A stretch of 64,000 bases of DNA from Ruminococcus sp. (GTDB taxonomy: Bacteria; Bacillota; Clostridia; Oscillospirales; Ruminococcaceae). The DNA is taken from the NCBI RefSeq assembly GCF_017464355.1, contig NZ_JAFUAG010000038.1, positions 39,392 through 103,391 on the forward strand, read 5' to 3'. A program made the position numbers and the translations under genes. Numbering within the stretch: position 1 is the stretch's first letter; each line of letters begins with the position of its first letter. The notes under the pieces are model-generated. The model did no database searches and was not told the DNA's origin. It saw only the letters and a program-made list of their open reading frames with translations. Below, piece by piece: positions 4,364-25,024 of this stretch.

Positions 4364-4392
4364 TTGCAAAGGTATGAAAAATGTGATATAAT
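4364..4392 (+). promoter_or_regulatory. Promoter of T4SS operon 1
   Basis: TTGCAA (4364-4369), 17-bp spacer and TATAAT (4387-4392). The predicted start is near 4399, 11 bases before the operator. Confidence 0.75.
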
Positions 4393-4409
4393 CGTATCGA
4401 AAAACGGAA

Positions 4410-4427
4410 AGTAAAATTGATTTTACT
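4410..4427. promoter_or_regulatory. Palindromic operator A
   Basis: AGTAAAATTGATTTTACT has perfect 8-bp arms (AGTAAAAT/ATTTTACT) around a 2-bp centre. It sits about 11-28 bases after the predicted start of operon 1, where a bound repressor would block initiation or elongation. Near-identical palindromes sit at the equivalent place before operon 2 and, weaker, before the GntR-like gene. Confidence 0.7.
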
Positions 4428-4453
4428 AACTAATACAGCGGAGGGCGATAAGG

Positions 4454-4693
4454 ATGTACAGTTTGTATGACAGGATAATGGCAAACGATTTTTTGTCCGT
4501 TTGTGACGAATTGGATCCATCGGAGTACAAGATCGAAAGTTTCAGGCACATGAAAAGATTTCTCATATCTGAAGAAACATCTGATGCGGCCAGAAAACTG
4601 CTGACCAAAACATCGGCGATGATAAGGAATGACCCCGAACACGCCAGGGATATACTTGAAAAGTCCTGCAAGGTCATAATCACGGGACACTGA
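4454..4693 (+). CDS. Small helical protein, first gene of T4SS operon 1
   Basis: This 79-residue protein begins nine bases after GGAGG. It is soluble and predicted helical throughout, with a dense mix of Asp/Glu/Lys/Arg and no motif that I recognise. It is the first gene behind the palindromic operator and lies 26 bases before the next gene, so it is part of the secretion operon. In conjugative elements this position often holds small accessory proteins, but nothing in the sequence specifies a role. Confidence 0.65.
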   Translation: MYSLYDRIMANDFLSVCDELDPSEYKIESFRHMKRFLISEETSDAARKLLTKTSAMIRNDPEHARDILEKSCKVIITGH

Positions 4694-4719
4694 GAAAAAC
4701 GTAAAAGGAGGTCATCGCA

Positions 4720-5718
4720 ATGGCAGCAGATCAGGGCGCAGAATTTTTAGCGATGTATATGAAGCTTCTGGAGTACAAGCTCCAGCTCATTCGTGATATA
4801 CTGAAAAATCTGGTACGTTTTGCTAAAGTAAGTGCGCCGATTGTGGCAAAACTGGTAGAGAAGTACAAAGAGACCAAAGCCGCCAAAGAGGCTGCAATGG
4901 AAAAAGGCACCGTGGATCTGGAGGTGCTTTCCGAGAACGAACAAAAACAGCTCGGGATCGCAGGACGCGGACCTGAGCTGATAGATGCAAGAGGATATGA
5001 GCAGGGGGAAGCTCCTCTCATGCTGGACGGCAATATGCCTCCCGCCATTCTCACCCCGGAAGAACGGGAAACAACAAGAGTAAAATTAGAGCAGCACGGA
5101 TTTGCAAGCAAACGGCTCCTCAATGATAAGTCAGCTATCCGCGGTACTGAGTCGCAGCTCAGGGCTGATGTGGAAAATATCCTGTCAAATGCTGATGATC
5201 TCTTTGAAACAGCCCGTAAGGCAGGCTGGAGCAAAGAGGAATTCGGCGCTCTGACTGAAGGGCTGACCGCAGGCACTGTATCTCCTGCGATAAAGGACAA
5301 GATCAATGGTGATATGCAGCGTGACATCGACGGACTCAATGCTGCCCACAGAAGCTTTGAACGGAATTTCCGCATATATGTATTGAACCGTGAAGCAGCC
5401 AGAGAGGACTTTGGAGACAGCGTGAGAGATCGGGCGGGAAGAAACGATCCGTTCCGTTCGGGGGCTGATGACAAGGTGATCGACGTTGATGTCCTTGATG
5501 CCCGTGAGTATAAGCAGATCGAGATGAACCAGGCTGTATCAGATATCCACAGCGGCAGCAGTGACATAGACAGAGGATATACCAAAGGCAAGGATACTCT
5601 CGATTCCTACAGAGATAGGATAAAGGCTGAAAGGGAAAGAAAGTCCATGACCAATGCAGGTGATCTTGGTGTGCGTGATAAGCAGAAGCAGCTGTCTGTG
5701 AGAGATCACGAACGCTGA
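4720..5718 (+). CDS. Hypothetical T4SS-operon protein, 332 residues
   Basis: AAAAGGAGG precedes the ATG. Residues 1-75 form a hydrophobic-amphipathic helical region with no clear membrane span. The middle (about 110-225) is helical and acidic, and the C-terminal third is rich in Arg, Asp and Ser and looks disordered ('DRAGRNDPFRSGADD'). There is no signal peptide. The gene lies directly upstream of virD4 (18-base gap). A soluble, charged protein next to the coupling protein could be a substrate adaptor or a relaxosome-type accessory factor, but I see no DNA-binding or nuclease motif, so this is only positional inference. Confidence 0.65.
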   Translation: MAADQGAEFLAMYMKLLEYKLQLIRDILKNLVRFAKVSAPIVAKLVEKYKETKAAKEAAMEKGTVDLEVLSENEQKQLGIAGRGPELIDARGYEQGEAPLMLDGNMPPAILTPEERETTRVKLEQHGFASKRLLNDKSAIRGTESQLRADVENILSNADDLFETARKAGWSKEEFGALTEGLTAGTVSPAIKDKINGDMQRDIDGLNAAHRSFERNFRIYVLNREAAREDFGDSVRDRAGRNDPFRSGADDKVIDVDVLDAREYKQIEMNQAVSDIHSGSSDIDRGYTKGKDTLDSYRDRIKAERERKSMTNAGDLGVRDKQKQLSVRDHER

Positions 5719-5736
5719 TAGGGGGCTGATGTTATC

Positions 5737-8001
5737 TTGAAGAAAAAGACGTCATCAACATATATTGTAACTGTGGTCATTGTGATGCTGGCTGTAGCTT
5801 TCGCGGCACTGCACCTGTCCTGCTCGGTAGATACCTGGAAAAAGCATTCGTCACAGGCTGCCGTATCGACAGGGGAAACGCCGGGAACGGTAAAGTTCCC
5901 CGGGCAGGAGATATTGGAAGATTTTTCGGGCAGGCTGAAAGCTCCTACAAAAAATATCTATTACAACAGCTATACACTTAAATTCCTGCTGGTGGGAGAG
6001 CTGGTGTGCTTCCTTGCTTTCCAGTACAACAAGCTGAATAAGAAGAAGTACATGGACGGAAAGGAGTACGGCTCGGCTGAATGGGCGAAAAGCGAAACTC
6101 TGCGCACCCTGCAAAGCGGCTATCTCTACAAGCAGGCTCTGAAAAAGGCTAAGACAAAGGAGAAAAAAGAGAAGCTGAAAGAGATGTATGAGCTGCCCGA
6201 TATCAAGAAGAAAAACTGGTACAGAACAGACCGCATATTTACCAGTACCGAGAGGATATGTATGTTCAACTATGAACTGAACAATAATACCCTCATCATA
6301 GGCGGTGCGGGTGCAGGTAAATCCAGGGGCTATGTGCTTCCCAACCTGCTGCAGTCGAATACATCCAATATAGTCACCGACCCCAAGGGCGAGCTTTACG
6401 GCAAGGTAGGCTACTTCCTGACCAGGATCAAGGGTCACAAGGTAAGGGTGCTGGAACTTGGAGATTTCAAGGGGCGCAGCGACTGTTTCAATCCGCTGTA
6501 TTATGTTCACCGCGACCGTGACGGCTGGGAGGAAAGAGTGCTTACACTTATAGAAACACTTATTTCCAACACCGACGGCGGACAGGAACAAAAGGGCTCA
6601 GACCCCTTTTGGCCAAAAGCGGAAAGACTTTTCCTTCAGGCCATAATCTTTGCAGTGGTACAGGCTTTCCCCGATGAAGAAGTAAACTTTGAAACGGTCA
6701 ATACCCTGATAAGCTGGCTCTCCATTGAGGAGGACGGCGATGATTACAACAGCGACCTGGACATCTTCTTTAAGGAATTTGCCAAGATGTACGGCGAAAA
6801 CAACATAGCTGTAAGGCAGTTCAATGAGTTTCGTTCCAAGGCCAGCGGCAAAACCGCAAAATCCATAGTTATCTCGGCGGTGGCAAGGCTTTCCTCCATG
6901 AAGATACCCGAGATACAGAGGATACTCAGCCGTGACGATATGCACCTTGACCTGGTAGGTGAGGAACTTACGACCATATTCGTGGTAAAGCCGCCTACGG
7001 TAGATGAATGCAACTATATCGCAGGTATGTTCTTCACCATACTTTTCCAGGAGCTGAACTACTGTGCTACAGTAAAGCACCGCGAAGACCAGCGTTGTCC
7101 CGTGCCCGTGCATTTCTATCTCGATGAATTTGCGACCACCTGCCGCATACCAAAGTTCGTTGAGATACAGTCCTATGCACGTTCACTGGGCATAGGCATA
7201 ACAGTGATATTGCAGTCGCTGGATCAGCTGAAAAATATCTACGAAAAGGAGTGGGGCGTTGTTATAGATAACTCCAACACCTTCCTTTATCTGGGCAATA
7301 TAGGTTCAATGGAAACGCTGAAATATGTGTCTGAGCTGCTGGGCAAGGCGACGATAGACAAGCGGTCTTCATCGCGTTCAAGAGGCAAATCGGGAAGTTC
7401 CTCGCAGAGCTTTGACAGAATGGGCCGTGAACTCATGATGCCCGATGAGATAAAAAAGCTTCCCAAGAAGGAGTGCCTGCTGTTCGTCAGCGGTAAAGCA
7501 CCTTTCCGCAGTGTAAAGTTCGATTACAGCCAACACCCTTATTACAAGTACAGTTCTGACTACGATAAGAGCCTGTTCTATGAGCATATACCCCAGTACC
7601 TCAAGGACAAGGAGAAGGAAAAGGACGAGCTTGAAAATGTCATTCCCGAAAAGGAAAGAGTTGACCTCGGCAATGCAGCTGCGGCAAAAGTGCCTGCGGA
7701 GCAGAAAGCCGATGAAAGACCTGTGCCTGATGACCGGGCTATAGAGGCGCTGCTGGACGATATACTCGGTGATGCAGATGTTTCGTCTGCGAACCATGAT
7801 ATGCACCCTGACAGCGTTGACTCCCTTATAGATGACCTGCTGGACGAAAACGGCAGGCTGGATGAAGAAGCACTTGATACAAAACTCGATGAGATAGCAG
7901 ATGATACAAGCAAGAACGGAGTTATCTCCGATGAGGACCTTGACGCACTGCTCGGATTGCTTGATCTCAGCGAAAGCCCTGCGGTGGATACCGCAAGCTG
8001 A
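5737..8001 (+). CDS. virD4: VirD4/TraG-type type IV coupling protein
   Basis: This is a 754-residue membrane ATPase that delivers substrates to the secretion channel. Two N-terminal membrane segments lie at about residues 8-27 and 82-96. Walker A is 'GGAGAGKSRG' (about 189-198) followed by 'VLPNLLQSNTSNIVTDPKGEL', typical of the TraG/VirD4 family. Walker B is 'VHFYLDEFAT' (about 455-464), and the family 'LQSLDQLKNIYEKEWG' motif follows. The last about 130 residues are a strongly acidic extension beyond the ATPase core, possibly for substrate recognition. The start is TTG 5737 behind GGGGG; a nearby ATG at 5729 is out of frame. It is the clearest sign that this locus moves macromolecules between cells. 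Confidence 0.93.
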   Translation: MKKKTSSTYIVTVVIVMLAVAFAALHLSCSVDTWKKHSSQAAVSTGETPGTVKFPGQEILEDFSGRLKAPTKNIYYNSYTLKFLLVGELVCFLAFQYNKLNKKKYMDGKEYGSAEWAKSETLRTLQSGYLYKQALKKAKTKEKKEKLKEMYELPDIKKKNWYRTDRIFTSTERICMFNYELNNNTLIIGGAGAGKSRGYVLPNLLQSNTSNIVTDPKGELYGKVGYFLTRIKGHKVRVLELGDFKGRSDCFNPLYYVHRDRDGWEERVLTLIETLISNTDGGQEQKGSDPFWPKAERLFLQAIIFAVVQAFPDEEVNFETVNTLISWLSIEEDGDDYNSDLDIFFKEFAKMYGENNIAVRQFNEFRSKASGKTAKSIVISAVARLSSMKIPEIQRILSRDDMHLDLVGEELTTIFVVKPPTVDECNYIAGMFFTILFQELNYCATVKHREDQRCPVPVHFYLDEFATTCRIPKFVEIQSYARSLGIGITVILQSLDQLKNIYEKEWGVVIDNSNTFLYLGNIGSMETLKYVSELLGKATIDKRSSSRSRGKSGSSSQSFDRMGRELMMPDEIKKLPKKECLLFVSGKAPFRSVKFDYSQHPYYKYSSDYDKSLFYEHIPQYLKDKEKEKDELENVIPEKERVDLGNAAAAKVPAEQKADERPVPDDRAIEALLDDILGDADVSSANHDMHPDSVDSLIDDLLDENGRLDEEALDTKLDEIADDTSKNGVISDEDLDALLGLLDLSESPAVDTAS

Positions 8002-8068
8002 ATAGTTTCACTAAAAATGATATCCGGTCATAAAGTATTTAGTCATGAAGAGAAAGGAAATGTTAAGT

Positions 8069-8446
8069 ATGAAAAATATCGATATGAAAAAGTTTAATGG
8101 GATCAAAAAGAAGACCTATAAGTATCTCTGGGTAGTGTCAGCTGTGTTCTGCTCAGTGACGGCTTCAACTATCTTTGCTTTTGCAGATGATGGTGTACCG
8201 TCCTCTATGTTTACTGCGGTCCTTGGAACGATCTGTAAATTTGTTACTGCACTTGGCGGTGTGGTCGCTCTTATAGGCGGTATCAACTGGGCTCTCGGAT
8301 TTAAGAGTGAGGATTCGGACGCTCAGGTCAGGGGTATCAGAACACTCATTGCCGGTGCCGCAGTAATTGCTGTTGTGCAGGCAGCAAAGACTTTTGTCTC
8401 GGATCCTACGCCCGCTACAGGGTTCATCACGTTCCTGGGGCTTTAA
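8069..8446 (+). CDS. Small membrane protein, VirB2/Maff2-like pilin candidate
   Basis: I prefer ATG 8069 because AGAAAGGA lies 10 bases before it; ATG 8045 in frame lacks a ribosome site. The protein (125 residues) has a basic N-terminus, a signal-like segment ending 'TIFAFADD', then two hydrophobic helices ('ICKFVTALGGVVALIGGINWAL' region and 'LIAGAAVIAVVQAA') joined by a short polar loop with 'DSDAQVRGIR'. This two-helix layout with a polar turn is that of VirB2-type pilins and of the small Maff2-type proteins found in the same place in Firmicutes conjugative elements. It is likely a subunit of the transfer channel or pilus. Stem-loops follow the gene, which would favour high expression. 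Confidence 0.7.
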   Translation: MKNIDMKKFNGIKKKTYKYLWVVSAVFCSVTASTIFAFADDGVPSSMFTAVLGTICKFVTALGGVVALIGGINWALGFKSEDSDAQVRGIRTLIAGAAVIAVVQAAKTFVSDPTPATGFITFLGL

Positions 8447-8670: not shown

Positions 8671-9930
8671 ATGAAAAAAAAAGTAGCGCTGCTTGCGGCA
8701 GCAGCCTGTTTATCCATGCTGATCTCTCCCTTTCAGGCTTATGCAGATGAAAGCAGCAAGGCTGAGAGCAAGAGCAGTTCAGCTCCAAAGTCCGACAGCA
8801 GCAAGTCCGATCGGTCATCGAAGGCTGAAACGAAGAAGGAGTCGGATAAAAGCACGGTGGGGATCATGGCTGTAATGCCGCAGGAATGGCTTGACGATGA
8901 TAACTATGAGTTCGAGGTCACATTTTCAAACGCAAGTGAGAGAAAAAGTGTTTACCTTGATGTGGATAACAGTTTCACGTCGGAAATAGAGCTGAAAAAA
9001 TATCAGATGTATGAGGTCACATTTTCAGACGATATCGCGGGCTACGATGTGGGCGGTATTGACCCTGACGGCTTTATGGCGGAACGGGATAATGAAATGA
9101 AGGTGCTGACTTTCAGACGTCATCAGGATATCTCGGCTGCTGCAGGGGACGGTGTCATAACCGCTGAACAGGCAGATGAACTTGAAGCGGCAAGAAATGT
9201 CGTTCAGCAATTTATCAGCAACACAAAAAAGATAGGCCTTGACGAGAACAACAATGACCAGAAGCTGCTCTTCAATCTTAACAAGGATATGATAAAGGAC
9301 AGGTTTTTTGAGGGGACAGGTAAATATTACACCCCGGAGGTATACAAGGAACTGACAAAAACAGATGCTTTCTACTGTTACTGGCTTTCCTATAATGCCT
9401 ACAAGGTAATAGATACCTCAGACCCCTATGTGGAGGAAAGCATAGATGAAGAGCTTTCATTTTTCAAGGACTATGACAGCCATGAACAGGTATATGAGGG
9501 TCTGCGCACTGCCGTTGGCAAGGAGGTAAGGAGCGTCTGGGAATGGCTGAAGACCCAGGCCGATGAAACAGGAGCCATGCCCGATCTTTTCATAGTGTAT
9601 ATGGATATGAAAAACAATGTGGAATATCAGATAGAAAATGCGGGAGTCACCAAAACAGAAGAAGTTTCTGCGGACGAAGATGTGGTGCATATCGAAGACA
9701 AGGTGGAATTGTTTATAGATGAAACCGAAGTCCCGGAAAGTGAACGTATCGATTTTACAGATGATCTTCCGAAGGAAGAAACGATCGCAAAGCGTACATC
9801 GTCAAGATTTCTGCGGCTGATCAAGGATAATTCAGTTACGCTGATATTTCTTGCTGTGACAGGTGCGGCGGTGCTGCTTACAAGACGTATCAGCAAAAAG
9901 GTAAAGGAAGATAGTGATGAAGATGATTAA
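8671..9930 (+). CDS. Secreted, C-terminally membrane-anchored protein of the T4SS operon
   Basis: ATG 8671 follows AGAGGAAAAG and begins a clear signal peptide (Lys-rich start, Ala/Leu core, cleavage near 'AYADES'). Residues about 28-65 are a Ser/Lys linker. The body (about 70-370) is soluble and of no family that I recognise. Near the C-terminus a hydrophobic helix ('SVTLIFLAVTGAAVLL') followed by basic residues anchors the protein, leaving a short cytoplasmic tail. The topology predicts a 419-residue surface protein standing in the cell wall zone. In this operon it could help contact the recipient or brace the channel; no adhesion domain is visible, so this is inference. Confidence 0.75.
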   Translation: MKKKVALLAAAACLSMLISPFQAYADESSKAESKSSSAPKSDSSKSDRSSKAETKKESDKSTVGIMAVMPQEWLDDDNYEFEVTFSNASERKSVYLDVDNSFTSEIELKKYQMYEVTFSDDIAGYDVGGIDPDGFMAERDNEMKVLTFRRHQDISAAAGDGVITAEQADELEAARNVVQQFISNTKKIGLDENNNDQKLLFNLNKDMIKDRFFEGTGKYYTPEVYKELTKTDAFYCYWLSYNAYKVIDTSDPYVEESIDEELSFFKDYDSHEQVYEGLRTAVGKEVRSVWEWLKTQADETGAMPDLFIVYMDMKNNVEYQIENAGVTKTEEVSADEDVVHIEDKVELFIDETEVPESERIDFTDDLPKEETIAKRTSSRFLRLIKDNSVTLIFLAVTGAAVLLTRRISKKVKEDSDEDD

Positions 9931-9944
9931 GGAGAGTGAAAAAA

Positions 9945-10868
9945 ATGTTTGATACTGCATTCAGCGGGACTTTTACAGCAGGTATAACGGCCAAATCAGC
10001 CTTTGCAAAGGGCGTAAAGAAATTTTTTGAGTCCCTCCTGGAGTCCATACCGAGCCAGAAGGAAGAACTGCTTGCTGTGCTGCAGCTTGATGGAAGTAAA
10101 AATCCCTTTGAGGGCGTGTCAATTCAGCTGACCACTACGCTGACGAATTATGCTTATATCATATGTGCCATAGTTTTTATGATAGAATTTCTGAAATACA
10201 CCATAAAGATAGAGGGTGTAAAGCTTGAATATGTGGCAGGTCTCGGCTTCAAATTCGCAGTGGCAAGATCGGCTCTGGATATAGGCAGAGATCTGCTGCT
10301 GGCCATTACCGCTACGGCAAACAGCCTCGTACTTTCAGCTGTGAATACCCAGGCAGTATACTATGCCTATGACAGCAGCGGTAAGCTTGTATCCCAGAGT
10401 GTGACGGGCGGTATCAGCGAGAATATAGAAGCTATCAAAACTCTGATCAACAAAACTCTTGAAGACGCGGGGATGTTTGATGCCATAGTACCGCTGATAA
10501 CACTTTCGCTGCCCTTTATCGCAATAAAGGTCATAATGTTTATCGGTATCATCATGGCATACGGCAGAATGTTCGAGATGACTATATACCAGATAATGTA
10601 CCCCCTGCCCTGCGGCATGATGCTGCTCGATCAGGGCAGGATACCCAAAAGGTTCTTTGCTTCATACTGTGCCTGCGCATTGCAGGGGCCTATCATGATA
10701 ATGTCGGTATCGCTTTTCGAGGGCTTCATGACAAGGGCAGTCGCAGAAGCGGAAACAGTCCAGGATCTCAGCGCTGTGGCATTCACCACCCTTATGGCTG
10801 CGCTGATGATGCTGATGGGAATGCTCAAATCAGGACAGTGGGCTAACAGGGTACTCGGTGAAAGTTAA
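9945..10868 (+). CDS. VirB6/TrbL-like polytopic membrane protein
   Basis: ATG 9945 lies nine bases after AAGGAGA; a GTG at 9936 would be too close to it. The 307-residue protein has about five or six membrane helices (for example around 'YIICAIVFMIEFLKY', 'ITLSLPFIAIKVIMFIGII', 'LQGPIMIMSVSLFEGF' and 'LMAALMMLMGML') and an extracellular loop between the first helices. This arrangement and its place between the pilin-like gene and prgI-virB4 match VirB6/TrbL-type inner-membrane channel components of Gram-positive conjugation systems. It would form part of the translocation pore. Family assignment rests on topology and synteny rather than on a catalytic motif. Confidence 0.75.
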   Translation: MFDTAFSGTFTAGITAKSAFAKGVKKFFESLLESIPSQKEELLAVLQLDGSKNPFEGVSIQLTTTLTNYAYIICAIVFMIEFLKYTIKIEGVKLEYVAGLGFKFAVARSALDIGRDLLLAITATANSLVLSAVNTQAVYYAYDSSGKLVSQSVTGGISENIEAIKTLINKTLEDAGMFDAIVPLITLSLPFIAIKVIMFIGIIMAYGRMFEMTIYQIMYPLPCGMMLLDQGRIPKRFFASYCACALQGPIMIMSVSLFEGFMTRAVAEAETVQDLSAVAFTTLMAALMMLMGMLKSGQWANRVLGES

Positions 10869-10880: not shown

Positions 10881-13800
10881 ATGATACAAATAGTTATCCC
10901 AAAGGATATTCGGGAATATAAGGAGAAGGTAGTCCTCGGCCTGACTTTGCGCCAGGCTGTGACCATAGGCTCCGCATTGGCAATAGGCATACCTATGCAC
11001 ATTATCGGAAAGCGCTATATAAGCGGAGATATCCTGCCTTTCATCATAGTGCTGCTGTGTACGCCTATAGTGGTCTGCGGTTTTGTTACGGTAAACGGTA
11101 TGCCCTTTGAGAAATTTCTGGTAGTGGGCATAGCCAAGTTTTTGAAATTTCCCGTAAAAAGACTGTACAAAAGCGATAACAAGTGGCGCAGAGATCTCAG
11201 GGAACTATACCCGGTAAAACCCCTTGACAAAAAGGAAAAAAAGCTGAAGACCGAAGCAAGCTTTGAAAAACTGTTTCTTTGTCTTGAAGCAGAGGAGAAT
11301 GGAGAGATGCTCAGTATGAAAGATATCAAAAACAGTGACCTGTTGACAGTAAAGATAAAGGAAAGGGCAGAAAAGGTAAAAAAAGAAGCTGCTCAGAAAA
11401 AGAAATCTTCCAAGGACTCAAAGTTTGAAAAACTCAAAAGCAGGGCTGATGAGATAGCCGCAAAGCAGGAGGCAGATCCCGAGTATGTGCCCGACAAAAA
11501 GGAAGGCGCTGTACTGAGAAAATACAACAACGCTGTACTGGTCAGACGTAAGAAGGTGGTCAAGGACGGCGTCAAGGATGTAAAGAAAAAGAACAATGAA
11601 ATGCTCAAAAGGAAAAAGGCCAAGACCTTTATCCCCAGATCAGCCCAGGATACTCTGCCCTATATAACAGATTTTGACAACGGTCTTTTTGAGGTGGAGG
11701 AGGGAGTCTACTCCAAGTGCTACCGCCTTAAGGACGTCAATTTCACCAATGTAAAAGAGGAGGAGCAGGAGCAGATCTTTGTGAAGTGGGGCGAATTCCT
11801 CAACTTCTTCTCAGAGGATATTTACCTTTCGGTGACTATCGACAACAGGATAGTCAGTGAGTCTGAGATGCTGGAAAACGTTCATTACCATATGCATAAT
11901 GATGACTTTGATGTACACAGAAGAGAATATAACCGTGTTATGGACGTGGCTGTGGCAAAGTCCAAAAAGAATATCCGTCAGGAAAAGATGTTCACCCTTT
12001 CGCTGAAAGCGGACAGCCCGCTGGAGGCAGAGATGAAGTTCCTGAGAATGGAAAATGCTATCCAGAAGAACCTGACCCCCATGGGAAGCAATGCAAAACT
12101 CATGAGTACCACCGAACGTCTTGAAATGCTCCACGACAAGTTCCGCAAGGGCAGGGAGGGGACTTTCAGGGTGAATTATCCGTTCCTTGAAAAGCAGGGG
12201 CTTTCCAGCAAAGACTATGTGGCACCCTCCAGCTTCTCCAGAATGGACAAGAAGGATTATTTCAAGATAGATAACGGCTTCTACAGATGTATGTATATCT
12301 CAAATCTTCCCGCCAGCATGAGCACCGATTTCATACAGGAGTTCGTCGATGTGGATTTCCCGCTGATGACAACTGTATGCATCGAGCCTATCGCCAGCGA
12401 CAAGACTCTCAAAATGGTAGGCAGAAATTATGCCTCCATGAAAAATGATGAGATCAAATACGAAAAGCGTGCAGCAAAAAGCGGCTATTCAAAAGCCTTT
12501 TTGCCCCCGAACCTTGAAAGGTCTATCGAGCAGGCTGCAGAGCTTATGGACTTTATACAGAACAAGTCCCAGAAGATGTTTTTCATCACCCTGACCTGCA
12601 TGGTATACGGCAAGACCAAGGAGGAACTTGAAGAGAACTGCGGCATTGTCATGAGCGTGGCAAGAAAGTTCACCTGCCAGATGTCCAGCTTTGATTTCCA
12701 GCAGGAGGAAGCCATGAAGATAACCTTCCCCATGGGTATCAGCCCCAAGGGAAAGACTTATGTTGACAAGACCATGACCACTGAGGCAGCTTCGCTGTTC
12801 CTGCCTTTCAACTCCACCGAGCTGTACCACAAGAACGGTTTCTACTATGGCATAAATCAGGTATCCAACAACATAATCCTCTGCGACAGGACACAGTTCA
12901 AGACCCCCTCGGGCTTCGTGCTGGGTTCGGCGGGCTCAGGTAAATCCTTTGCCGTCAAGCGTGAGATATTCAATGTTCTGTTCAGAGATGATGAGACCAG
13001 CGTTATAGTTATCGACCCTGAGGCAGAGTATGTTGATTTCTGCGAGATATTCATGGGCGTGCCTATAACAGTCTCGCCGGGCTCTGACATTCATATCAAT
13101 CCTATGGATATGAGTGAGAACTACGGACTTGATGTCACAGACGATGTCATGAGTACTCCTCTTGAAGTGAAGAAGAAGAAAGCCCTCGTCAAGAAGAGCG
13201 ACTATATCATGTCGATCGTTCAGTCCATGATGCAGGACGCTAACGGCTATGTCAGCATAACCCCTGCCCAGAGGACTATCATCGACCGTGCGGTCCAGAA
13301 CGCTTACTATGAGTACATGACACACAATTTCGACAGCCAGTACCTGCCTACGCTGAAGGATCTGTATAATGAGATACAGTCCATGAGGCTGACCACCGAG
13401 GGCGCAGCTGAGATAGCTGACGGTATTGACTATTACATCAACGGCTCCATGGGCGTTTTCGCAGATTATTCCAACGTTGACTACAACAACAGGTTCGTGG
13501 TCTTCAATATCAAGGAACTTGGCGAGCAGCTGAGGCAGATAGCTCTGCTGATAATCCTGGATTTCATCTGGGATAAGATGTCCACTAACTTCACCGAGGG
13601 CAAGAGAACATATACCTATGCCGATGAGATACACGTCCTGTTCAGGAACGACTTTGCTGCACAGTATCTCCGTCAGCTTTACAAGCGCGGAAGAAAGTTC
13701 GGTCTTGTTATCACAGGCATAACTCAGGACTGTGAAGACCTGCTCTCGAATACGGTAGCAAGGGGCATGATAAGCAACTCAGACTTCGTGCTGATGCTTT

Positions 13801-17116: not shown

Positions 17117-17121
17117 AAAAG

Positions 17122-17858: not shown

Positions 17859-17878
17859 AAGTAAAATCTGCTTTACTT
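17859..17878. promoter_or_regulatory. Palindromic operator D, upstream of operon 2 promoter
   Basis: AAGTAAA (17859-17865) and TTTACTT (17872-17878) are perfect 7-bp arms around ATCTGC. The inner 18 bases agree with operator A at 14 positions. It lies about 85-100 bases upstream of the operon 2 start, a distance at which a repressor dimer of dimers could loop to operator B. Confidence 0.6.
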
Positions 17879-17923
17879 AAAATACAAAAAGTGTAAAATT
17901 CATAATTTTTTATGCTAAAACTA

Positions 17924-17953
17924 TTGACTTTTCGGGGTGAGGTGTGTTATAAT
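17924..17953 (+). promoter_or_regulatory. Promoter of T4SS operon 2
   Basis: TTGACT (17924-17929), 18 bp, TATAAT (17948-17953). The predicted start is near 17960. Confidence 0.75.
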
Positions 17954-17973
17954 GTAATAGAAGAAACGAGTAA

Positions 17974-17991
17974 AGTAAAATTGACTTTACA
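17974..17991. promoter_or_regulatory. Palindromic operator B
   Basis: AGTAAAATTGACTTTACA matches operator A at 16 of 18 positions and lies about 14 bases after the predicted start of operon 2, the same relative place as A. An overlapping arm pair GTAAAGT/ACTTTAC (17970-17990) is also present. Confidence 0.7.
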
Positions 17992-18015: not shown

Positions 18016-18270
18016 ATGTCTTCAGAAAACAGACGAGAGGGACTGTCCAACGCAGCCGGGGTAAAAGCGGATATCATAAACCGTGATGACAGCTATGTTA
18101 CTTCAAAAGAACTGGCCATGGATGCTGAAAAGCAGCAGCAGATCACCCGTACAAAACTTGAATGGGAGATGGCAATAAACGCTGAACGCAAACGCATGAA
18201 AGCCGATAAGCAGCTCCGACAAGAAAAGCACGAACAGTCCGGGAAAAACGAAATTTTTGAAAGAACATGA
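18016..18270 (+). CDS. Small charged protein, first gene of T4SS operon 2
   Basis: This 84-residue protein starts after AAAAAGGAGATACAGCG. The second half (about 38-75) is a strongly charged helix rich in Lys, Arg, Glu and Gln, able to form a coiled coil. It has no Cys, no membrane segment and no recognisable motif. As first gene of operon 2 it is directly behind operator B and lies 46 bases before the large ArdC/LtrC-like gene. Function is unknown. Confidence 0.65.
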   Translation: MSSENRREGLSNAAGVKADIINRDDSYVTSKELAMDAEKQQQITRTKLEWEMAINAERKRMKADKQLRQEKHEQSGKNEIFERT

Positions 18271-18316: not shown

Positions 18317-21300
18317 ATGGATCATTTTGAGAAATATATAAATGCCCTTCCACAGGCAGCAGCTCTCAGCTTCGGGGAAAATGGGGCTGAAAAATGCATT
18401 ATAGCTGTATGTGATGAGGGAAACAGCGGGGAGTTGAAAGCATACAAGGGAAAGACATACGAAAGCCCCGAAAAGGCAAGGACAGCACTGAAAAATGCAG
18501 GGCTGTATGAAGTGACCCTTGATGAACTAAAAAAATACGGTACTGAGGCTGCAAAGAAAAGAGCGCAGTTTTTCAGGGATATATATATAAATACTCCGCC
18601 TGTGGTCGTTGTGGAAAAAAGCGGCCATGAACTTGTAAGGTCAGGCAGAAGATACACACCGGCTGTGTTCTCGCACCTCCTTGAAGAGGCTGAGGCCGAA
18701 TGGGAAAAAGGCAAGAGCGCAGGGAGCAATACTCATCTGGGCTATGCCAGGATAAACTACACTATAACGAACATTCCGTTCAATGATAAAGAGCTTGGAG
18801 AGCTTAAGTGCCGCCAGGCTATAGGCGACGGTGACAGGTCGCTGGTAAACCATGTCAGAAATGTCTCCGATGATAACATAGAGATGCTGAAAGAATGGGG
18901 CAGGACCGATAAGGACCGTGATGCCCTGACAGAAGCCAGGCTCAGAGCCTGCTGGATAGAGCCCTTTATTGAGTTTGCGGTAATGCTGGGGGACCTTGAA
19001 CAAGAAAACGCTCAGATAAACGCAGACAATGACAGGGAAGGCTGCTCTGCTGAGCAGAAAAAAAAGAGCAGCTTTGATGAGCGCTACGGAAATGTCCGTA
19101 TCTCAGAACTCAAAAAAATAGTCTACCTCAGGTTCAGCGCAGCTGCAGCCAGGCTGATGTCGCTGATACTGGAGGGTGAAAAGATAAGCTATAACACTGC
19201 TTTGCGAGGTGGCTTGGGCGTTGTGGCCGTTTCAGGTGAGGATGAGCTGAGAGTAAGGCAGCTTATGAGAATACATGAACTAAGCACAGGCCTTGGCAGA
19301 CAGCAGGACAAAAATGATCCCCTGGCCGATAAGCAGAGCGCTGAGAGATTTCTCAACGACAGGATAACAGATATCATGAAGAACGACGGCCTTGAAGGCT
19401 TCTGCAAACTGCCCTCGCTCTATTCCCTGAGAAACCACAGTTTTGCAAATGCAGTGCTGATAACCAGCATGATGCCCGAAGCCTCGTTCTGCTGCTCCAA
19501 CAGGGTCTGGCAGATATACGGCAGGACCTGTAAAGAAGGCAGCGAGCCACTCAGGATCTTCCAGCCCGTGGTACTTGGCGAAAACAATATCGCAGCTTTC
19601 TGGGAAAGGCTGAAAAAGGATATAGTCCGTTCCTATTCACCTGAGAAGAATTATGGTGAAGCGGTCATACCTGATACGGATGTCACCATAACAGGCAATA
19701 ACGACAGCTATGATATCAGGATAAAGGGCAAGATACTTGTGGCTAACCAGCCCAGTAAGGTCATAAAGAATTGGATGTCGAAGGTCATGCTGAATAAGGT
19801 GACTATCGACCATACCATGGGCAATGTCTATGATATCTCCCAGACTGTCCCTGCAGAGGACTATCTCTGGGTCAGGTCGGGCTTTGAGTGGAAGGAGCTG
19901 GTGCTTGAAAACAACGGCAAGCCCGTGCGCGACGCAAACGGCTTCTATAAGGTGAATAATACTCCCGAAAGGATAAAAAGCTTTGTGCCCGATGTTTCAT
20001 GCACGCTGAAAAGACGGGACAAGGGCAGGCTCGAACTGCTTTATGATGTACTCAGAGCCGTGGCTGAGGATATGGATCTCCATGTACATGAGATAAGCAG
20101 CGATGAAGCCGCTGAAGAAAAGAGGGAAGGCTTCTATTCACCCAAGGAAGGCATGATAAAAATATGCCGCGATGAAGATATGTATGATAAGGTGAGCATG
20201 GTCATACATGAACTGGCTGCTGCTGAGATACAGCGCTCCTACAGCCAGAAAAACATAAACGCTTATGAAACTGATATCCAGTCTGAAGCAGCAGCCTGCA
20301 TAGTAGCTGCAAGATTTGGCATAAACACCGATATAGGTTCTTTCAGAAGCTGTCCCCAGATGTTCAAGGTGAGAACTGTTGAAGTCATACGGGGATACCT
20401 TGAGAATATGTGGTCAGCTGCAAGGCACATATCGGCGCAGATAAATGATGAACTGGAGGCCAGAGGGCTGACGGCTGCCATTGAACCCGCAGACCGCAGC
20501 GAGGGACTGATGTCTGAGGAGGCCGTGGAGGAAAAGATAAAGGGCTACATTGAAACTCTGGCAGAGATAAGAACTAATAATATCGCAGAAGCTAAGCGAA
20601 GCAAGGAAGAGTATGAGAAATGCGTCGTCAATAATGTAAGACAGCTTCTGGAAGAACTGCGTAAAAAACAGACTGCCATAGATAAGGAGATAATGGCCAC
20701 TGATGAGCATATCAGAAGGCTCAGGGATTGTATCACCGCAGGCCAGCAGAAGAAAGCTCTGAGAATGATAAAAGCAGGCCTGGGACGGATAGCCATTATG
20801 GAGGACGAATGCATAAAGCTCCGCAATGCCATAGATATCATGCCTCAGCCGCACACTCCTTTGCAGGAGTTCAAGGCTGCACCCATGAATTTTATGGGGA
20901 AGCTGCATGAGTTTGAAAATGTAAGTGATGAACTTAAGGTCATCATAGCACAATCAAAGTTCATAAGGGTAAGGTACGCACCTCTCCTTGAAAGCTCTGT
21001 GAGTGCTTTTGCTGAGGCTGCTGTAAAGCAGGCTGAAAATATAAAAAAGGTAATGTCCAGAAACGAAACGGCCGTTGAGATAGTGAAGTTTGAATATCTT
21101 GATACCGACACCAGACTTTCAGCAGGCATGGTAATGCATCCCAGATATGCCGATGATATCTTCAAACGCCTGGAATGCGAGATAAAAAGTGCAAAAAAGG
21201 AAGCTGAGCGCAGGGACAGCTACTATCCGAGCCTTGCGGCGGAGATAACTGTCTACAGCTATATCAAGTCTTTCAACGTCGATGGCGTAGTTGCCATGAA

Positions 21301-21580
21301 CAGTATAATATTCGTGGGGGACGGCCGCCAGAACAGCCTTTCAGAGCATATCTCGGGTATCAGAAAGGGTATAGAAAGGACAGAGGTATGTGACAACTTC
21401 TTTGACTCACTGAAAGAAAAGGGAAAAAACGTGCAGTGCCTTCTTCCTGAGGAGAGCCCTGAGGTCGCAAAGCTGTTGAGAGATACCTCGGACAGCACCC
21501 GTGATATGGAGGACTGGAATTATTTTCTGATGAGAAGCGATGATGAAAAAAGAAAAAAAGGGAACCACACCCGGGGGTAA
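18317..21580 (+). CDS. Large ArdC/LtrC-like protein with a degenerate zincin motif
   Basis: This 1087-residue cytoplasmic protein has a central segment (about residues 335-430: 'SLRNHSFANAVLITSM', 'NRVWQIYGRTCKEGS', 'LRIFQPVV') like the N-terminal, single-strand-DNA-binding domain of ArdC antirestriction and LtrC-type conjugation proteins. About 200 residues later comes the partner metallopeptidase-like domain ('GFYSPKEGMIKICRD ... HELAAAEI ... SEAAACIVAARFGINTD'). There the expected HExxH is H631-E-L-A-A635, lacking the second His, so zinc proteolysis is probably lost. The N-terminal 330 residues and the helical C-terminal 400 residues are not recognisable. In conjugative elements such proteins protect incoming DNA or act in transfer. 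It is the largest gene of operon 2. I searched it for relaxase His-cluster and Tyr motifs and found none. Confidence 0.7.
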   Translation: MDHFEKYINALPQAAALSFGENGAEKCIIAVCDEGNSGELKAYKGKTYESPEKARTALKNAGLYEVTLDELKKYGTEAAKKRAQFFRDIYINTPPVVVVEKSGHELVRSGRRYTPAVFSHLLEEAEAEWEKGKSAGSNTHLGYARINYTITNIPFNDKELGELKCRQAIGDGDRSLVNHVRNVSDDNIEMLKEWGRTDKDRDALTEARLRACWIEPFIEFAVMLGDLEQENAQINADNDREGCSAEQKKKSSFDERYGNVRISELKKIVYLRFSAAAARLMSLILEGEKISYNTALRGGLGVVAVSGEDELRVRQLMRIHELSTGLGRQQDKNDPLADKQSAERFLNDRITDIMKNDGLEGFCKLPSLYSLRNHSFANAVLITSMMPEASFCCSNRVWQIYGRTCKEGSEPLRIFQPVVLGENNIAAFWERLKKDIVRSYSPEKNYGEAVIPDTDVTITGNNDSYDIRIKGKILVANQPSKVIKNWMSKVMLNKVTIDHTMGNVYDISQTVPAEDYLWVRSGFEWKELVLENNGKPVRDANGFYKVNNTPERIKSFVPDVSCTLKRRDKGRLELLYDVLRAVAEDMDLHVHEISSDEAAEEKREGFYSPKEGMIKICRDEDMYDKVSMVIHELAAAEIQRSYSQKNINAYETDIQSEAAACIVAARFGINTDIGSFRSCPQMFKVRTVEVIRGYLENMWSAARHISAQINDELEARGLTAAIEPADRSEGLMSEEAVEEKIKGYIETLAEIRTNNIAEAKRSKEEYEKCVVNNVRQLLEELRKKQTAIDKEIMATDEHIRRLRDCITAGQQKKALRMIKAGLGRIAIMEDECIKLRNAIDIMPQPHTPLQEFKAAPMNFMGKLHEFENVSDELKVIIAQSKFIRVRYAPLLESSVSAFAEAAVKQAENIKKVMSRNETAVEIVKFEYLDTDTRLSAGMVMHPRYADDIFKRLECEIKSAKKEAERRDSYYPSLAAEITVYSYIKSFNVDGVVAMNSIIFVGDGRQNSLSEHISGIRKGIERTEVCDNFFDSLKEKGKNVQCLLPEESPEVAKLLRDTSDSTRDMEDWNYFLMRSDDEKRKKGNHTRG

Positions 21581-21643: not shown

Positions 21644-21838
21644 ATGGAAGAGAAAAAAGAACAGCCAAATGCTGTGAAGGATATCAAATTGAAGTCAGCA
21701 GAGAATAAGCTCGGGAAAATGCCTGCCACTTTCACAATGAGAAAGGAAAGAGAAGATATGATAAAAAAAGGCATAGTGTTCCCCAGGACCTCTGAACTGA
21801 CATATATCGACGATAACGGAAACCTGATCGAGATATAA
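21644..21838 (+). CDS. Small hypothetical protein, 64 residues
   Basis: CAAGGAGTATCAGAT precedes the ATG, giving a well-supported start. The protein is basic and soluble. Its second half ('MPATFTMRKEREDMIKKGIVFPRTSELTYI', shown only in part) reads like a short helix followed by a beta hairpin. It lies 12 bases before the next gene in operon 2. No family is recognised. Confidence 0.6.
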   Translation: MEEKKEQPNAVKDIKLKSAENKLGKMPATFTMRKEREDMIKKGIVFPRTSELTYIDDNGNLIEI

Positions 21839-21850: not shown

Positions 21851-22186
21851 ATGAAAAATGCTGTCGGTACATCATTCAGCTATGATGAGATGATAGTGTT
21901 GAATAACGTAGGCATAAACGTCAGCCTGAAAGACGCAATGAACAGTGTGCTGACCCAGGTGGTCATCACAAGGGATAAGACGGTAAAGGTGATGCTGCTG
22001 GATCTGAACACGAAACTCAGACAGATGAGCGAGGAGGAGTGGGAGGATATGCAGAAGTCTATGCCCTTTGAGATAGCCTACATGAATGAAGATCATTATG
22101 ACGATCCCATGGATCTGAACGATGAGGATATGGCAAAGTTCGATAAAATAATAGAAGATATGGAAAAGGAGGGCAGCAGTTCTTAA
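21851..22186 (+). CDS. Hypothetical protein, 111 residues
   Basis: AAGGAAGTGATA precedes the ATG. The protein appears to be a small alpha/beta domain (residues 1-65) followed by an acidic helical tail rich in Asp, Glu and Met ('DDPMDLNDEDMAKFDKIIED'). There is no signal or membrane segment. It is co-directional and closely spaced inside T4SS operon 2. I do not recognise a family. Confidence 0.6.
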   Translation: MKNAVGTSFSYDEMIVLNNVGINVSLKDAMNSVLTQVVITRDKTVKVMLLDLNTKLRQMSEEEWEDMQKSMPFEIAYMNEDHYDDPMDLNDEDMAKFDKIIEDMEKEGSSS

Positions 22187-22241: not shown

Positions 22242-23531
22242 ATGGATAAAGAACAGACACAGGAAGTGAAAAAAACCATAAGCGAAAGGCTTAAGGAGAT
22301 CGCCGCTGAAAAGAACGGTATCATGGATGATATAGGAAAGCAGAAAGCTGATTTTGCCCCTGATATAGACAAAGAAGGCCTTACAGACCTTTTTAGGCGA
22401 TCCTGCACCTCTCTGGCAGGGCTCAATGAACTCTCATATGAACTTAAGGAGATGCAGACAGACCTTGAACAGAAGATCGCAGGGATAAAAGAGGCATCAG
22501 GTCTTGAGAGTGAGATAGCAAGCAAGAAAAAGGAACTGACAAAGGTCCACGATCAGCTGAGAGATGGTTTCCTGCAGTGGAGCATGATGGATCATGAACT
22601 GCAAAAACAGGGCATAACCCACGATTCTCCCATGACCCCCGAGATACTGCCCAAGGTAGGCGCGGTGGAGAACCAGGGCGCTAAGGTGGATAATATAAAA
22701 GCCCGTAAGGATGAACTTGAAGCTGAGATCAAAGGTCTTGAAGCCAAAAAAGACAGCATGAAGGAGGAGATCAGCCGACTCCCTGAGCTTGAAAGCCGGC
22801 TGGAGGAAGTAAAGGTCCTCAGCGAAGAAATGGAAAAGGCCGCCGATATCGCAGTGGAAAATGCCGATTTTTACTTTGATGACCTGAAGGTACAGATAGG
22901 TATCGTGCCGCCCACAGAGGAACACCCGCAGAGAGGTCAGCAGGTCTCCGAGAAAGATGCCATTCGTGAAAAATATCAGGCAGAAAACGGCCTTTCTGCA
23001 GAGGAATTCAAGAAGCTGGGGCAGGCTGCCCACAGAGAAAATGATGAGCTGAAGGCCGCCATCTCCCTTGAAGCAAAGGTTACTATCGAGAATTCATCGC
23101 ACGGTGCATTAGGCGCTGTAAAGGATATGCTCAAAAAAGGCCTTGAAGCCGCTGCCAAGAGCTATGAGGGCTTCAGAGACAGTCTGTTGAGCAGCATTAC
23201 CATTGCCCCACTCCGCCCTGACCTTGAGTCACAAGCACCTGAGAAGGGCAATGGAAGATCGCTGAGCGATATCGTTAAGACCGCCGGCGAGATACACCGC
23301 AATAATGCGGATATAAACTACCATAAAGGACAGATAAGGTCGCTGAGAGCAGAGATGACGAGGGAACAGCAGGAACGCAAGTATCTGAGTACCGATGAAA
23401 GGAACGGCGCTGTGAACCTGCAGGCTTTCAGAGATGAGATATCCAGAAAAGAGACCCGCATAGATGAACTTAAGGATAAGAACAGCGAGCTGAAAAAGGG
23501 TTTGACAAAGTCAGATGACATGACCAGATGA
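22242..23531 (+). CDS. Coiled-coil protein, 429 residues
   Basis: ATG follows AAGGAGTGAACAAAA. Long heptad-like helices occupy about residues 5-30, 60-115, 155-210 and 355-425, rich in Glu, Lys, Leu and Ile. The section between (about 225-330) has a mixed composition. No Walker motif, membrane segment or signal peptide is present, so it is not an SMC-type ATPase. It is the first of three successive coiled-coil genes in operon 2 and may form a filament or scaffold with them. That idea comes from composition and context only. Confidence 0.7.
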   Translation: MDKEQTQEVKKTISERLKEIAAEKNGIMDDIGKQKADFAPDIDKEGLTDLFRRSCTSLAGLNELSYELKEMQTDLEQKIAGIKEASGLESEIASKKKELTKVHDQLRDGFLQWSMMDHELQKQGITHDSPMTPEILPKVGAVENQGAKVDNIKARKDELEAEIKGLEAKKDSMKEEISRLPELESRLEEVKVLSEEMEKAADIAVENADFYFDDLKVQIGIVPPTEEHPQRGQQVSEKDAIREKYQAENGLSAEEFKKLGQAAHRENDELKAAISLEAKVTIENSSHGALGAVKDMLKKGLEAAAKSYEGFRDSLLSSITIAPLRPDLESQAPEKGNGRSLSDIVKTAGEIHRNNADINYHKGQIRSLRAEMTREQQERKYLSTDERNGAVNLQAFRDEISRKETRIDELKDKNSELKKGLTKSDDMTR

Positions 23532-23589
23532 TGTCATGAGAACATAAGTAAGAAACTAAAGAATAATAAACAGAAGGAGCGAATTGAAA

Positions 23590-24222
23590 ATGGCAAAGAA
23601 AAATATGGAAAATGAAGATTTCGCAAGAATAGGCAAGAATTCTTACGGCGCATCAAGAAAAGATCTTGGCGCTCTGGGTAGCGATAAGCTGAACGGGATC
23701 ATCAAAGAAGTTAATCAGGAAGTAAGTAATATCGATAAGAAGATCAGCAATGTTTACCTGAACGGCAGGATGGTCGCAGGTCATGATGTCGTTCTGCAGG
23801 ACATGGAGAGCCAGAGAGAAAAGCTCACTAAATACCTCGATAAGCTTTATGACGTAAGAGGCGGCATTGATGAACATATCGCTGTGCTGGAGGCTAAGAT
23901 AAAAACTGCCGAGAGCAAGGTAAAGAGCAACGAAGAGGAGATCAGCACAAAGACCTCCCTGATGAAGGAGCTTGGAAAGAAAGTCACCAGAATGGATAAT
24001 GACAACAGGGTCGGTATCCCGATAAATGAGTCCGAGAAGGATTCCGCTCTGAGTCAGATTGGCAAGCTCGAGACCCGTCTTGAAGCTATCAATGAGGAAA
24101 ATTCTGCACTTAAGCAGAATATCTCTGATTTTAAGCGTCAGATAGATGAACTGAAAAAGGGTACGTCTTCCAACAAGAAGAAGGCAGGCCCCAAGAAAGA
24201 TGAACAGAATTTAGGAGAATAA
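23590..24222 (+). CDS. Coiled-coil protein, 210 residues
   Basis: AGAAGGAG lies ten bases before ATG 23590; an upstream TTG at 23584 would sit closer to it but gains little. After a basic N-terminus the protein is almost all helix, with two long coiled-coil segments (about 25-130 and 150-195) and a Lys-rich tail ('SSNKKKAGPKKDEQ'). It is similar in character to the genes on either side, and only five bases separate it from the next. No catalytic motif is visible. Confidence 0.7.
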   Translation: MAKKNMENEDFARIGKNSYGASRKDLGALGSDKLNGIIKEVNQEVSNIDKKISNVYLNGRMVAGHDVVLQDMESQREKLTKYLDKLYDVRGGIDEHIAVLEAKIKTAESKVKSNEEEISTKTSLMKELGKKVTRMDNDNRVGIPINESEKDSALSQIGKLETRLEAINEENSALKQNISDFKRQIDELKKGTSSNKKKAGPKKDEQNLGE

Positions 24223-24227
24223 GTGAA

Positions 24228-24629
24228 ATGGCTAAAAAGATCACATATGAGGATTTTATAGCGATAGATAAAAAGATCGACGTCATAAATGATGAGATAA
24301 GCGAGCTTATACAGCAGGGCGCTTCTGATGAGGTGCTGGAGGAAAAGTATATACAGCTCGGCAAGGCTGTCATCGGCAGGGATCTTGCAGAGGCACGTCT
24401 GAAAGAGGATATGACCGAAGAGGAGAAAGCAGATTTCGATAAACTCATCTCCCTCTATCAGCGGCAGAAAATGCTGGAGCTCAGGCTGAGCATCATGGAA
24501 AAGGAACTGGATGAAACTATGGCATCAAAGGCACAGCTCGATGAGACCATAGCAGACGGTGAGCGTGTGCTGGAACTGGTGGAGAAGACTATCAGGGCTG
24601 TAGAGAATCAGTCCTCTGCCGTAAACTGA
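24228..24629 (+). CDS. Coiled-coil protein, 133 residues
   Basis: TTAGGAGAATAAGTGAA precedes the ATG, and the gene starts five bases after the previous stop, indicating tight coupling. The whole protein is predicted as two or three antiparallel helices with Leu/Ile heptads and many Glu/Lys. There is no membrane segment. It forms, with the two genes before it, a run of coiled-coil proteins in operon 2. Function is unknown. Confidence 0.68.
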   Translation: MAKKITYEDFIAIDKKIDVINDEISELIQQGASDEVLEEKYIQLGKAVIGRDLAEARLKEDMTEEEKADFDKLISLYQRQKMLELRLSIMEKELDETMASKAQLDETIADGERVLELVEKTIRAVENQSSAVN

Positions 24630-24651
24630 ACTGTGGGAAAGGGGCAGAGAA

Positions 24652-24921
24652 ATGGAAGACGAGATCATACGGCTTGATACTCCCGAGGGACAGATCGAGG
24701 CTAATGTGGTGGCCGCTTATTCGGTGGAGGATAAGGACTATATCGCACTGGTACCCACCGCCATGCTTAACAAAGGTGATCCCGATGTCATACTTTACCG
24801 CTATAAGGATATAGATGACGGCATCGAACTTCTTGACCTGACCGATGAGGAATTCGACAGCGCGAGAAATGCCCTTGAAGCCATACTGGCCGATGAAGAA
24901 GAGGGCGAAGCACTCAGCTGA
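24652..24921 (+). CDS. Small acidic DUF1292-like protein, 89 residues
   Basis: This short protein reads as a beta-rich N-terminal part ('DTPEGQIEANVVAAYSVEDK', 'YIALVPTA', 'VILYRYKD') followed by 'LTDEEFDSARNALEAIL', an arrangement strongly reminiscent of the DUF1292 family of small Firmicutes proteins whose function is unknown. The ribosome site (GGGAAAGGGG) is adequate. It is the last gene of T4SS operon 2 and is followed directly by two stem-loops. The DUF1292 call is by pattern and should be treated as likely rather than proven. Confidence 0.65.
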   Translation: MEDEIIRLDTPEGQIEANVVAAYSVEDKDYIALVPTAMLNKGDPDVILYRYKDIDDGIELLDLTDEEFDSARNALEAILADEEEGEALS

Positions 24922-24942
24922 AAAGTCACAGTATAAAACGAT

Positions 24943-25024
24943 ACCGAAGCAGACCGTCGGGTCGGCTTCGGTACTTCTTATGAACATGAAAAACGGCACG
25001 GCTGCAAAGGGCAGCTGTGCCGTT
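24943..25024. terminator. Tandem terminators between convergent genes
   Basis: Hairpin 1 pairs ACCGAAGCAGACC with GGTCGGCTTCGGT (24943-24972) after operon 2. Hairpin 2 (24992-25024) pairs AACGGCACGGCTGC with GGCAGCTGTGCCGTT; on the reverse strand it is followed by TTTTT and so terminates the dockerin gene. They mark the right border of the T4SS locus. Confidence 0.8.

Follow-up and report, generated by a model that had tools for sequence, protein, structure and literature searches.

The 64,000-nucleotide stretch of a Ruminococcus sp. contig analyzed here (the window) carries a type IV secretion system (T4SS) locus of the CD1110/CD1115 type, in a draft genome of 3.48 Mb (49 contigs, 91% complete). 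Seventeen genes between 4454 and 24921 lie on the same strand, and the G+C content is 44-49% within the locus compared to mostly 50-56% to its right. The first operon, behind promoter P1, is predicted to make a VirD4 coupling ATPase, a pilin, a VirB6-like protein, a fusion of PrgI (VirB3) with VirB4, and a VirB1-like protein, together with the candidate cargo protein w1. It is followed by a gene for a GntR-type regulator and by a second operon, behind promoter P3, that would make accessory proteins and further candidate cargo (w9, w10, and w13). VirB4 and VirD4 exceed the curated NCBI cut-offs for the CD1110 and CD1115 families, and residues 6-86 of the VirB4 fusion match PrgI (PF12666). The pilin-like, VirB6-like, and VirB1-like proteins score under their family cut-offs, yet each is the collinear homologue of a gene on plasmid pOBV01 of Oscillibacter valericigenes Sjm18-20 (AP012045.1; 26-41% identity). 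The machine parts named in a preliminary description of this DNA are thus present, firmly so for VirD4 and VirB4 and by collinear homology for the other three. Searches of the host genome with VirB4 and with w10 each returned a single match, the window's own.

Genes for DNA processing are missing from this locus. Pfam gave no relaxase, integrase, or replication gene among the 17 open reading frames (ORFs) of 4454-24921, a set that leaves out the upstream frames u1 to u3. Comparison by hhalign of 17 profiles (15 proteins and two parts of w10) with the relaxase and MobC profiles of relatives, among them five relaxases of the same VirB4 clade, reached 2.0% at best. Neither a relaxase nor a MobC, topoisomerase, or integrase gene was found in the locus. 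The flanks 1501-4460 and 24851-25700 have no direct 11-mer in common, so that no att-like repeat was seen there. These results bear out the absences listed in the preliminary description. Relaxases were searched genome-wide with three families (PF03432, PF03389, and PF01076), none of which matches on the contig of the window. PF03432 matched in 14 of the 20 genomes given; in the host genome it found only a fragment of 145 amino acids (aa) (71 bits; 724-1158 of region L003 on contig C25) near a contig end. A short MobC-like frame, recognized by eye, adjoins this fragment. PF03389 matched in none, and PF01076 in one, of three genomes (the host, G026, and G418), the one match being a MobV relaxase of the host that is discussed below. 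No relaxase of the three families thus lies within 60 ORFs of the VirB4 gene, a situation in which VirB4 clusters, with or without a coupling protein, have been counted as putative protein exporters (PMC3158045).

Comparison with pOBV01 indicates where the missing genes would have been. The plasmid resembles the locus in its PrgI-VirB4 fusion (47% identity) and VirD4 (50%), in proteins with the same kind of C-terminal tail (see below), and in pilin, VirB6, VirB1-like, GntR, and a polyvalent LPD25/ArdC protein in the same order, with the homologue of w4 lying elsewhere. It differs in being a plasmid with rep, parAB, a NikA/MobC-like protein, a MobA/VirD2 relaxase, and a topoisomerase, and PLSDB lists it as conjugative, MOBP, and MPF_T. 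Its gene order is C13, C19, another gene, NikA/MobC, relaxase, C17, C6, and VirD4, with C17 directly downstream of the relaxase both in pOBV01 and in a Butyrivibrio relative (L035). The window has u2 (C13), u3 (C17), an XRE-like gene, w0, w1 (in the C6 position), and VirD4; u2 and u3 are adjacent with 20 bases between them, and MobC and relaxase are absent from this place. Likewise absent are the topoisomerase and two other genes that separate GntR from OBV_p-00460 in pOBV01. Compared to the CD1110/CD1115 systems of Bacillota (NF045971, NF045973), whose cut-offs its VirB4 and VirD4 pass, the locus differs in the fusion of PrgI to VirB4, and none of the relaxase, integrase, replication gene, or att repeat of a conjugative element of this type was found with it.

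The clade with the fused VirB4 comprises nine members: the window, a second Ruminococcus genome (G026), L035, L036, L037, pOBV01, L039, L040, and L045. The closest relative, G026 (90% VirB4 identity), is likewise without a relaxase. VirB4 is 46-48% identical in the other seven, five of which have a MobA/VirD2 relaxase on the T4SS contig (L035, L037, pOBV01, L039, and L040). The second refuting case named in the preliminary description, close relatives in which the locus belongs to an ordinary element with a relaxase, thus applies in part: relaxase-bearing relatives exist at this distance, but the nearest copy also lacks the enzyme. The relaxase gene is found just upstream of C6/VirD4 in L035, L037, pOBV01, and L039, and none is found there in the window, G026, or L036 of Pseudobutyrivibrio (genome G418); in L040 it lies away from VirD4, and in L045 on another contig. 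PF03432 has no match in G026 or G418. In both the VirB4 and the VirD4 trees, L036 is sister to the relaxase-bearing Butyrivibrio L035 (support 100/100), apart from the window and G026, and it appears to have lost its relaxase separately. There, C13 adjoins C17 with 228 bases and, by eye, no relaxase-like frame between them. The L036 contig ends soon after VirB4, and the VirB1-like gene is absent at that place (13279-13800), where VirB4 runs directly into the C5 gene. Between L036 and L035, saturation of dS left two genes out of six for which dN/dS (the ratio of non-synonymous to synonymous substitution rates) was obtainable (0.18 and 0.20). An insert of about 110-130 aa in VirD4 is absent in the window, G026, and L036 and present in all six other clade members. 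We rejected its loss as a general marker of relaxase loss, since outgroups with a genomic relaxase (for example L042, L048, and L052) also lack it, and it does not settle the ancestral state in the lineage of the window.

A close copy of the locus occurs in only two of 29 genus genomes, the host and G026. Among 396 genomes drawn from the taxonomic family (E up to 1e-150), nothing above 38% identity appeared besides the host, among 394 drawn from the order (E up to 1e-220) the host alone matched, scans of viral contigs with VirB4 and w10 confirmed no member, and phages gave no match to w10.

The copy in G026 (76% complete) is collinear over contigs C187, C79, and C103 and allowed us to measure selection. 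All 19 gene pairs are open without internal stops, with dN/dS of 0.004-0.43 (0.042 for VirB4) and dS of 0.82-2.64; w14 was left out because of a length difference, and w10 was measured without its first 85 residues owing to a contig end. Three chromosomal genes (suf-like by eye, 29017-32563) gave dS of 1.06-1.43, a fourth being dropped as it has no orthologue on that contig. With dS near saturation, this comparison goes no further than to date the locus copies to about the time of the species split. The ATPases are 83-90% identical between the two genomes, and pilin, VirB6, the VirB1-like protein, and w4 52-63%. It is therefore well supported that the locus is kept and not decaying, as the preliminary description had argued. 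A decaying remnant of an integrative conjugative element, caught before pseudogenes formed, would fit the loss of DNA-processing and integration genes, the relaxase fragment on C25, and the rarity of close copies, yet purifying selection on all 19 pairs near synonymous saturation and the conserved operators described next make it very improbable.

The 16-bp operator GTAAAAYYKRYTTTWC has four exact sites in the window (4411, 17123, 17861, and 17975), and these are the only exact sites in the whole draft genome. With up to two mismatches, nine matches at five places were found in the window (palindromes counted on both strands) compared to 1.1 expected, and one-mismatch sites elsewhere in the genome are no more frequent than those of a backwards control (eight against nine places). 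Three of the operators (4411, 17123, and 17975) sit just downstream of the -10 boxes of P1, P2, and P3, as for a repressor. Each of the four has a similar, aligned counterpart in G026; two of these counterparts are exact, the one at gntR has one mismatch, and the fourth departs further from the pattern. G026 has no other exact sites, both being in its locus. The GntR protein differs from that of G026 in one of 178 residues at a dS of 1.1 and, with a dN/dS of 0.004, is the most constrained gene measured. The coregulation proposed in the preliminary description is hence upheld. GntR probably regulates its own locus; judged by the position and conservation of the sites, it would bind the operators and act by repression.

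The extent of the locus had to be revised on one side (Table 1). On the right, the border previously given stands: two hairpins follow the last gene, and homology to G026 ends at 24924. On the left, the former border at 4364 is merely the -35 box of P1. Since u2 and u3 have homologues among the element genes of pOBV01 and, with the XRE-like gene, are collinear in G026, the locus reaches over at least 2814-24921; the G026 contig stops before u1 (2002-2544), where the leftward comparison ends. The right-hand neighbour in G026 differs from that in the window, so that the locus has moved or was acquired separately. A clean empty site could not be demonstrated from the sigma-factor-like flank in related genomes (L093-L098) and the flank near 28144 in G018 (L133), because these have different neighbours.

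Table 1 Coordinates of the locus features in the window
Feature	Position	Strand	Remarks
T4SS locus, CD1110/CD1115 type	2814-24921		minimum extent
u2	2814-3188	+	124 aa; by eye a membrane protein; pOBV01 homologue C13 (hhalign 95%); collinear in G026
u3	3209-3637	+	142 aa; homologue of C17 (hhalign 91%); 82% identical in G026
Terminator-like hairpin after u3	3642-3674	+	13-bp stem
XRE-like regulator	3653-3877	-	74 aa; named by eye; divergent from machine operon; 88% identical in G026
Promoter P1 (TTGCAA-17-TATAAT) and operator	4364-4426	+	-35 at 4364; operator 4411-4426
w0	4454-4693	+	79 aa; open in both genomes, dN/dS 0.11
w1, candidate cargo	4720-5718	+	332 aa; C6 position upstream of VirD4; C6-type C-terminal tail
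VirD4 coupling ATPase	5737-8001	+	TTG start; NF045973 404 bits (cut-off 250)
VirB2/Maff2-like pilin	8045-8446	+	41% to pOBV01 homologue; Maff2 below cut-off
w4	8671-9930	+	419 aa; by eye, a signal peptide and a membrane segment at the C-terminus; homologous to C5 (hhalign 74%)
VirB6-like	9936-10868	+	26% to pOBV01; NF045848 E 1.8e-6, below cut-off
PrgI (VirB3)-VirB4 fusion	10881-14132	+	NF045971 791 bits (cut-off 325)
VirB1-like, NlpC/P60 domain	14224-17076	+	21.8 bits (cut-off 23); pOBV01 homologue
Promoter P2 (TTGACA-17-TACAAT) and operator	17088-17138	+	before gntR; operator 17123-17138
GntR-type regulator	17169-17705	+	178 residues
Terminator-like hairpin after gntR	17744-17772	+	
Promoter P3 and two operators	17861-17990	+	promoter 17924-17953; operators 17861-17876, 17975-17990
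w9, candidate cargo	18016-18270	+	84 aa; tail motif; position of OBV_p-00460
w10, polyvalent protein	18317-21580	+	1087 aa; LPD25; region aligning to the ArdC-N/peptidase part of OBV_p-00470; weak tail
w11	21644-21838	+	64 aa
w12	21851-22186	+	111 aa; OBV_p-00510 homologue (hhalign 85%)
w13, candidate cargo	22242-23531	+	429 aa; coiled-coil by eye; last ~110 aa conserved, body variable
w14	23590-24222	+	210 aa; coiled-coil by eye
w15	24228-24629	+	133 aa
DUF1292 protein, last gene	24652-24921	+	
Two strong hairpins	24942-25024	+	z -7.7; a scan requiring a T-run called no terminator

Three dispersed repeats were observed in the window. An imperfect palindromic repeat of about 110 bp (2522-2635) has many copies, mostly 94-100% identical in the host, G004, and G018 and 80-90% identical in other genus members; it may be what breaks the G026 assembly. 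A further repeat lies at 3903-3987, many copies of which on other contigs have an insert of about 38 nt in the middle that is absent here. The third, of about 170 bp (~37056-37278), is present in high copy in the host, G004, and G018.

Several proteins of these systems have a C-terminal tail in common. A motif near [T/S/N]-M-x-[E/D]-[Y/W]-xxx-I-xxx-[R/K], 35-44 residues from the C-terminus, is shared by four different pOBV01 proteins (OBV_p-00320, 450, 460, and 470) and their kin on other contigs. A matrix was trained on hand-picked tails of relatives only, and each protein was scored with its own family left out against 430 control ORFs. Under these conditions w1 (19.3, control maximum 11.4) and w9 (16.3, 10.7) exceed all controls, as do three of the four pOBV01 proteins, OBV450 (20.9, 14.3), OBV460 (12.0, 10.7), and OBV470 (16.6, 15.0); w9 of G026 (11.4, 10.7) and a large L101 protein (17.6, 15.0) do so as well. 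With all families in training, w13 (5.5, p 0.03) and w14 (8.3, p 0.016) score lower, and the pOBV01 relaxase (-1.6, p 0.32) is itself without the motif. Between the window and G026, the last 40 residues are more conserved than the body in w1 (58% against 26%) and in w13 (80% against 28%), with no such difference in w9 (55% and 52%).

The large protein w10 contains LPD25 (PF18840, 41.6 bits, cut-off 27). Its residues 328-1068 align with OBV_p-00470, which has ArdC-N, a domain without a direct match in w10. The zincin site reads HELAA instead of HExxH in the window and G026, and HExxH is present in OBV470 and the large L101 protein; with the site lost in both genomes, zincin activity is not what is kept. 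Matches obtained with PADLOC were rejected as generic ATPase or coiled-coil by appearance.

VirD4, both operons, and the tail-bearing proteins are kept, and the genes for handling DNA are gone; read most simply, this leaves a machine that still moves proteins. That a second species keeps the same relaxase-less machine intact suggests delivery of something other than DNA, probably proteins. We propose that this chromosomal T4SS descends from a pOBV01-like conjugative element, that it lost MobC, relaxase, and topoisomerase, and that selection may have kept it as a contact system for translocating proteins. Cargo would be recognized via the tail of about 40 residues, and VirD4 would pass it into the channel towards a recipient. 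We favour such a conjugation machine turned protein exporter at just under even confidence.

Several observations weigh against it. The motif was first spotted by eye in a listing that included window proteins, and the training tails were chosen by hand. The w1 of G026 scores 8.0 (p 0.016), under the control maximum of 11.4, and with C6 left out OBV320 (7.4) and the C6 proteins of L035 (9.9), L036 (6.4), and L039 (1.8) all fall within the control range. By hhalign, w1 is not matched to C6 (none at 15% or more) nor w9 to OBV460, so that these two pairs rest on position and tail. The clearest predicted passenger is w10, whose tail scores 5.7 (p 0.04) and is 28% identical to that of G026 compared to 77% for the body, and DNA would be a sensible partner for its ArdC-like region. 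The candidate cargo proteins gave no match to an effector or toxin domain in the libraries to which each was given. Relaxase-bearing relatives carry the same tail, which may therefore act as an escort signal that was retained for transferring DNA in trans. Finally, the host genome does encode a relaxase, the MobV protein on contig C33 (467 aa, PF01076, 64 bits), next to an integrase-like gene recognized by eye.

This MobV gene belongs to a candidate integrative mobilizable element (IME; L103, 4889-12446) with, by eye, a cytosine methylase and a tyrosine integrase. IMEs are parasites of conjugation, and the chief competing explanation is that the machine transfers DNA in trans for IMEs with their own relaxase, such as this one, and persists as the host or the IME benefits. 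Retention of VirD4 and of an ArdC-like protein would fit, and the MobV C-terminus scores 13.3, the highest among the 430 controls (all tail families in training; 12.5 with another background). Six MobV homologues taken from 280 plasmid records with a match gave scores of -5.5 to 6.6, so that the score of the host protein may be chance, and we regard the tail as a weak lead to the IME. A scan of viral contigs with MobV confirmed none. None of the three relaxase families matches in the 76% complete G026 or in G418, both of which have relaxase-less machines, and IMEs alone would not explain long purifying selection on the machine. Of the two fates offered in the preliminary description, a kept protein or contact system is the likelier; mobilization in trans, for which the MobV element on C33 is a real candidate, is less likely.

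Rather less probable is that the system is still self-transmissible, through an unrecognized relaxase in w10 or another locus protein, or in the ~9% of the genome that is not assembled. The incomplete draft and the three families searched genome-wide leave some room for it. The preliminary description had named a relaxase fold in one of the locus proteins as a finding that would overturn it. Sequence profiles revealed none, and sequence searches of the PDB were marginal (best E 0.22 for w1 with E up to 1, and 0.094 for w10 with E up to 0.1). For w10, the one large candidate, AlphaFold2 without an alignment gave a poor prediction (predicted local distance difference test score 35.5). The hhalign comparison speaks against a hidden relaxase; moreover, the place upstream of C6/VirD4 that carries the relaxase in four relatives has none in the window, G026, and L036, and no gene for integration or replication and no att repeat was found in the locus.

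A surface, adhesion, or exclusion structure, that is a pilus with a cell-wall hydrolase and no translocated cargo, would agree with the fast divergence of pilin, VirB6, the VirB1-like protein, and w4 relative to the ATPases, as for surface parts under changing selection. A VirD4 coupling ATPase is not expected to be necessary for a pilus alone, and purifying selection on VirD4 together with the retention of tail-bearing proteins renders this explanation quite improbable.

For the favoured protein exporter there are partial precedents. Patescibacteria are described with chromosomal monoderm VirB4-type T4SSs in which the relaxase is absent from most clusters, and co-option was proposed (PMC12102498). 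Those systems occur phylum-wide, compared to two Ruminococcus genomes here, and the same paper notes no VirB3-VirB4 fusions in its dataset. The Gram-positive 89K T4SS of Streptococcus suis, compared by description only, is reported to export the protein SspA-1; it differs in lying in a pathogenicity island and in having a subtilisin-like protease as cargo (PMC12857230). Conjugative elements are also described as transferring proteins with or beside DNA (PMC5512222). Among the top results of the open-access PMC literature, titles and abstracts contained nothing describing this locus or tail (searched as Gram-positive C-terminal signal, relaxase-less T4SS, Ruminococcus or Ruminococcaceae T4SS, and pOBV01).

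A broader possibility, about which we are distinctly more doubtful, is that monoderm conjugation machines became dedicated protein-injection systems twice or more (in Ruminococcus and Pseudobutyrivibrio) by losing MobC and relaxase while VirD4 and cargo were kept. The cargo would then carry a transferable export tag of some 40 residues at its C-terminus, made up of a motif centred on an aromatic residue and a charged run reaching the end. If true, it would be a Gram-positive counterpart of the XVIPCD-tailed bactericidal T4SSs of proteobacteria. The likeness, by description only, lies in the notion that diverse cargo proteins share a recognition region, which in XVIPCD proteins is reportedly C-terminal; those systems differ in their diderm machine and lethal effectors. 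Overall, the locus provides a concrete case of a machine that selection has maintained in the absence of a relaxase, with operators confined to one 20-kb locus and with named candidate cargo. The short tail of the cargo could be fused to a reporter and may, more widely, be of use in predicting which proteins pass through the T4SSs of pOBV01-like elements.

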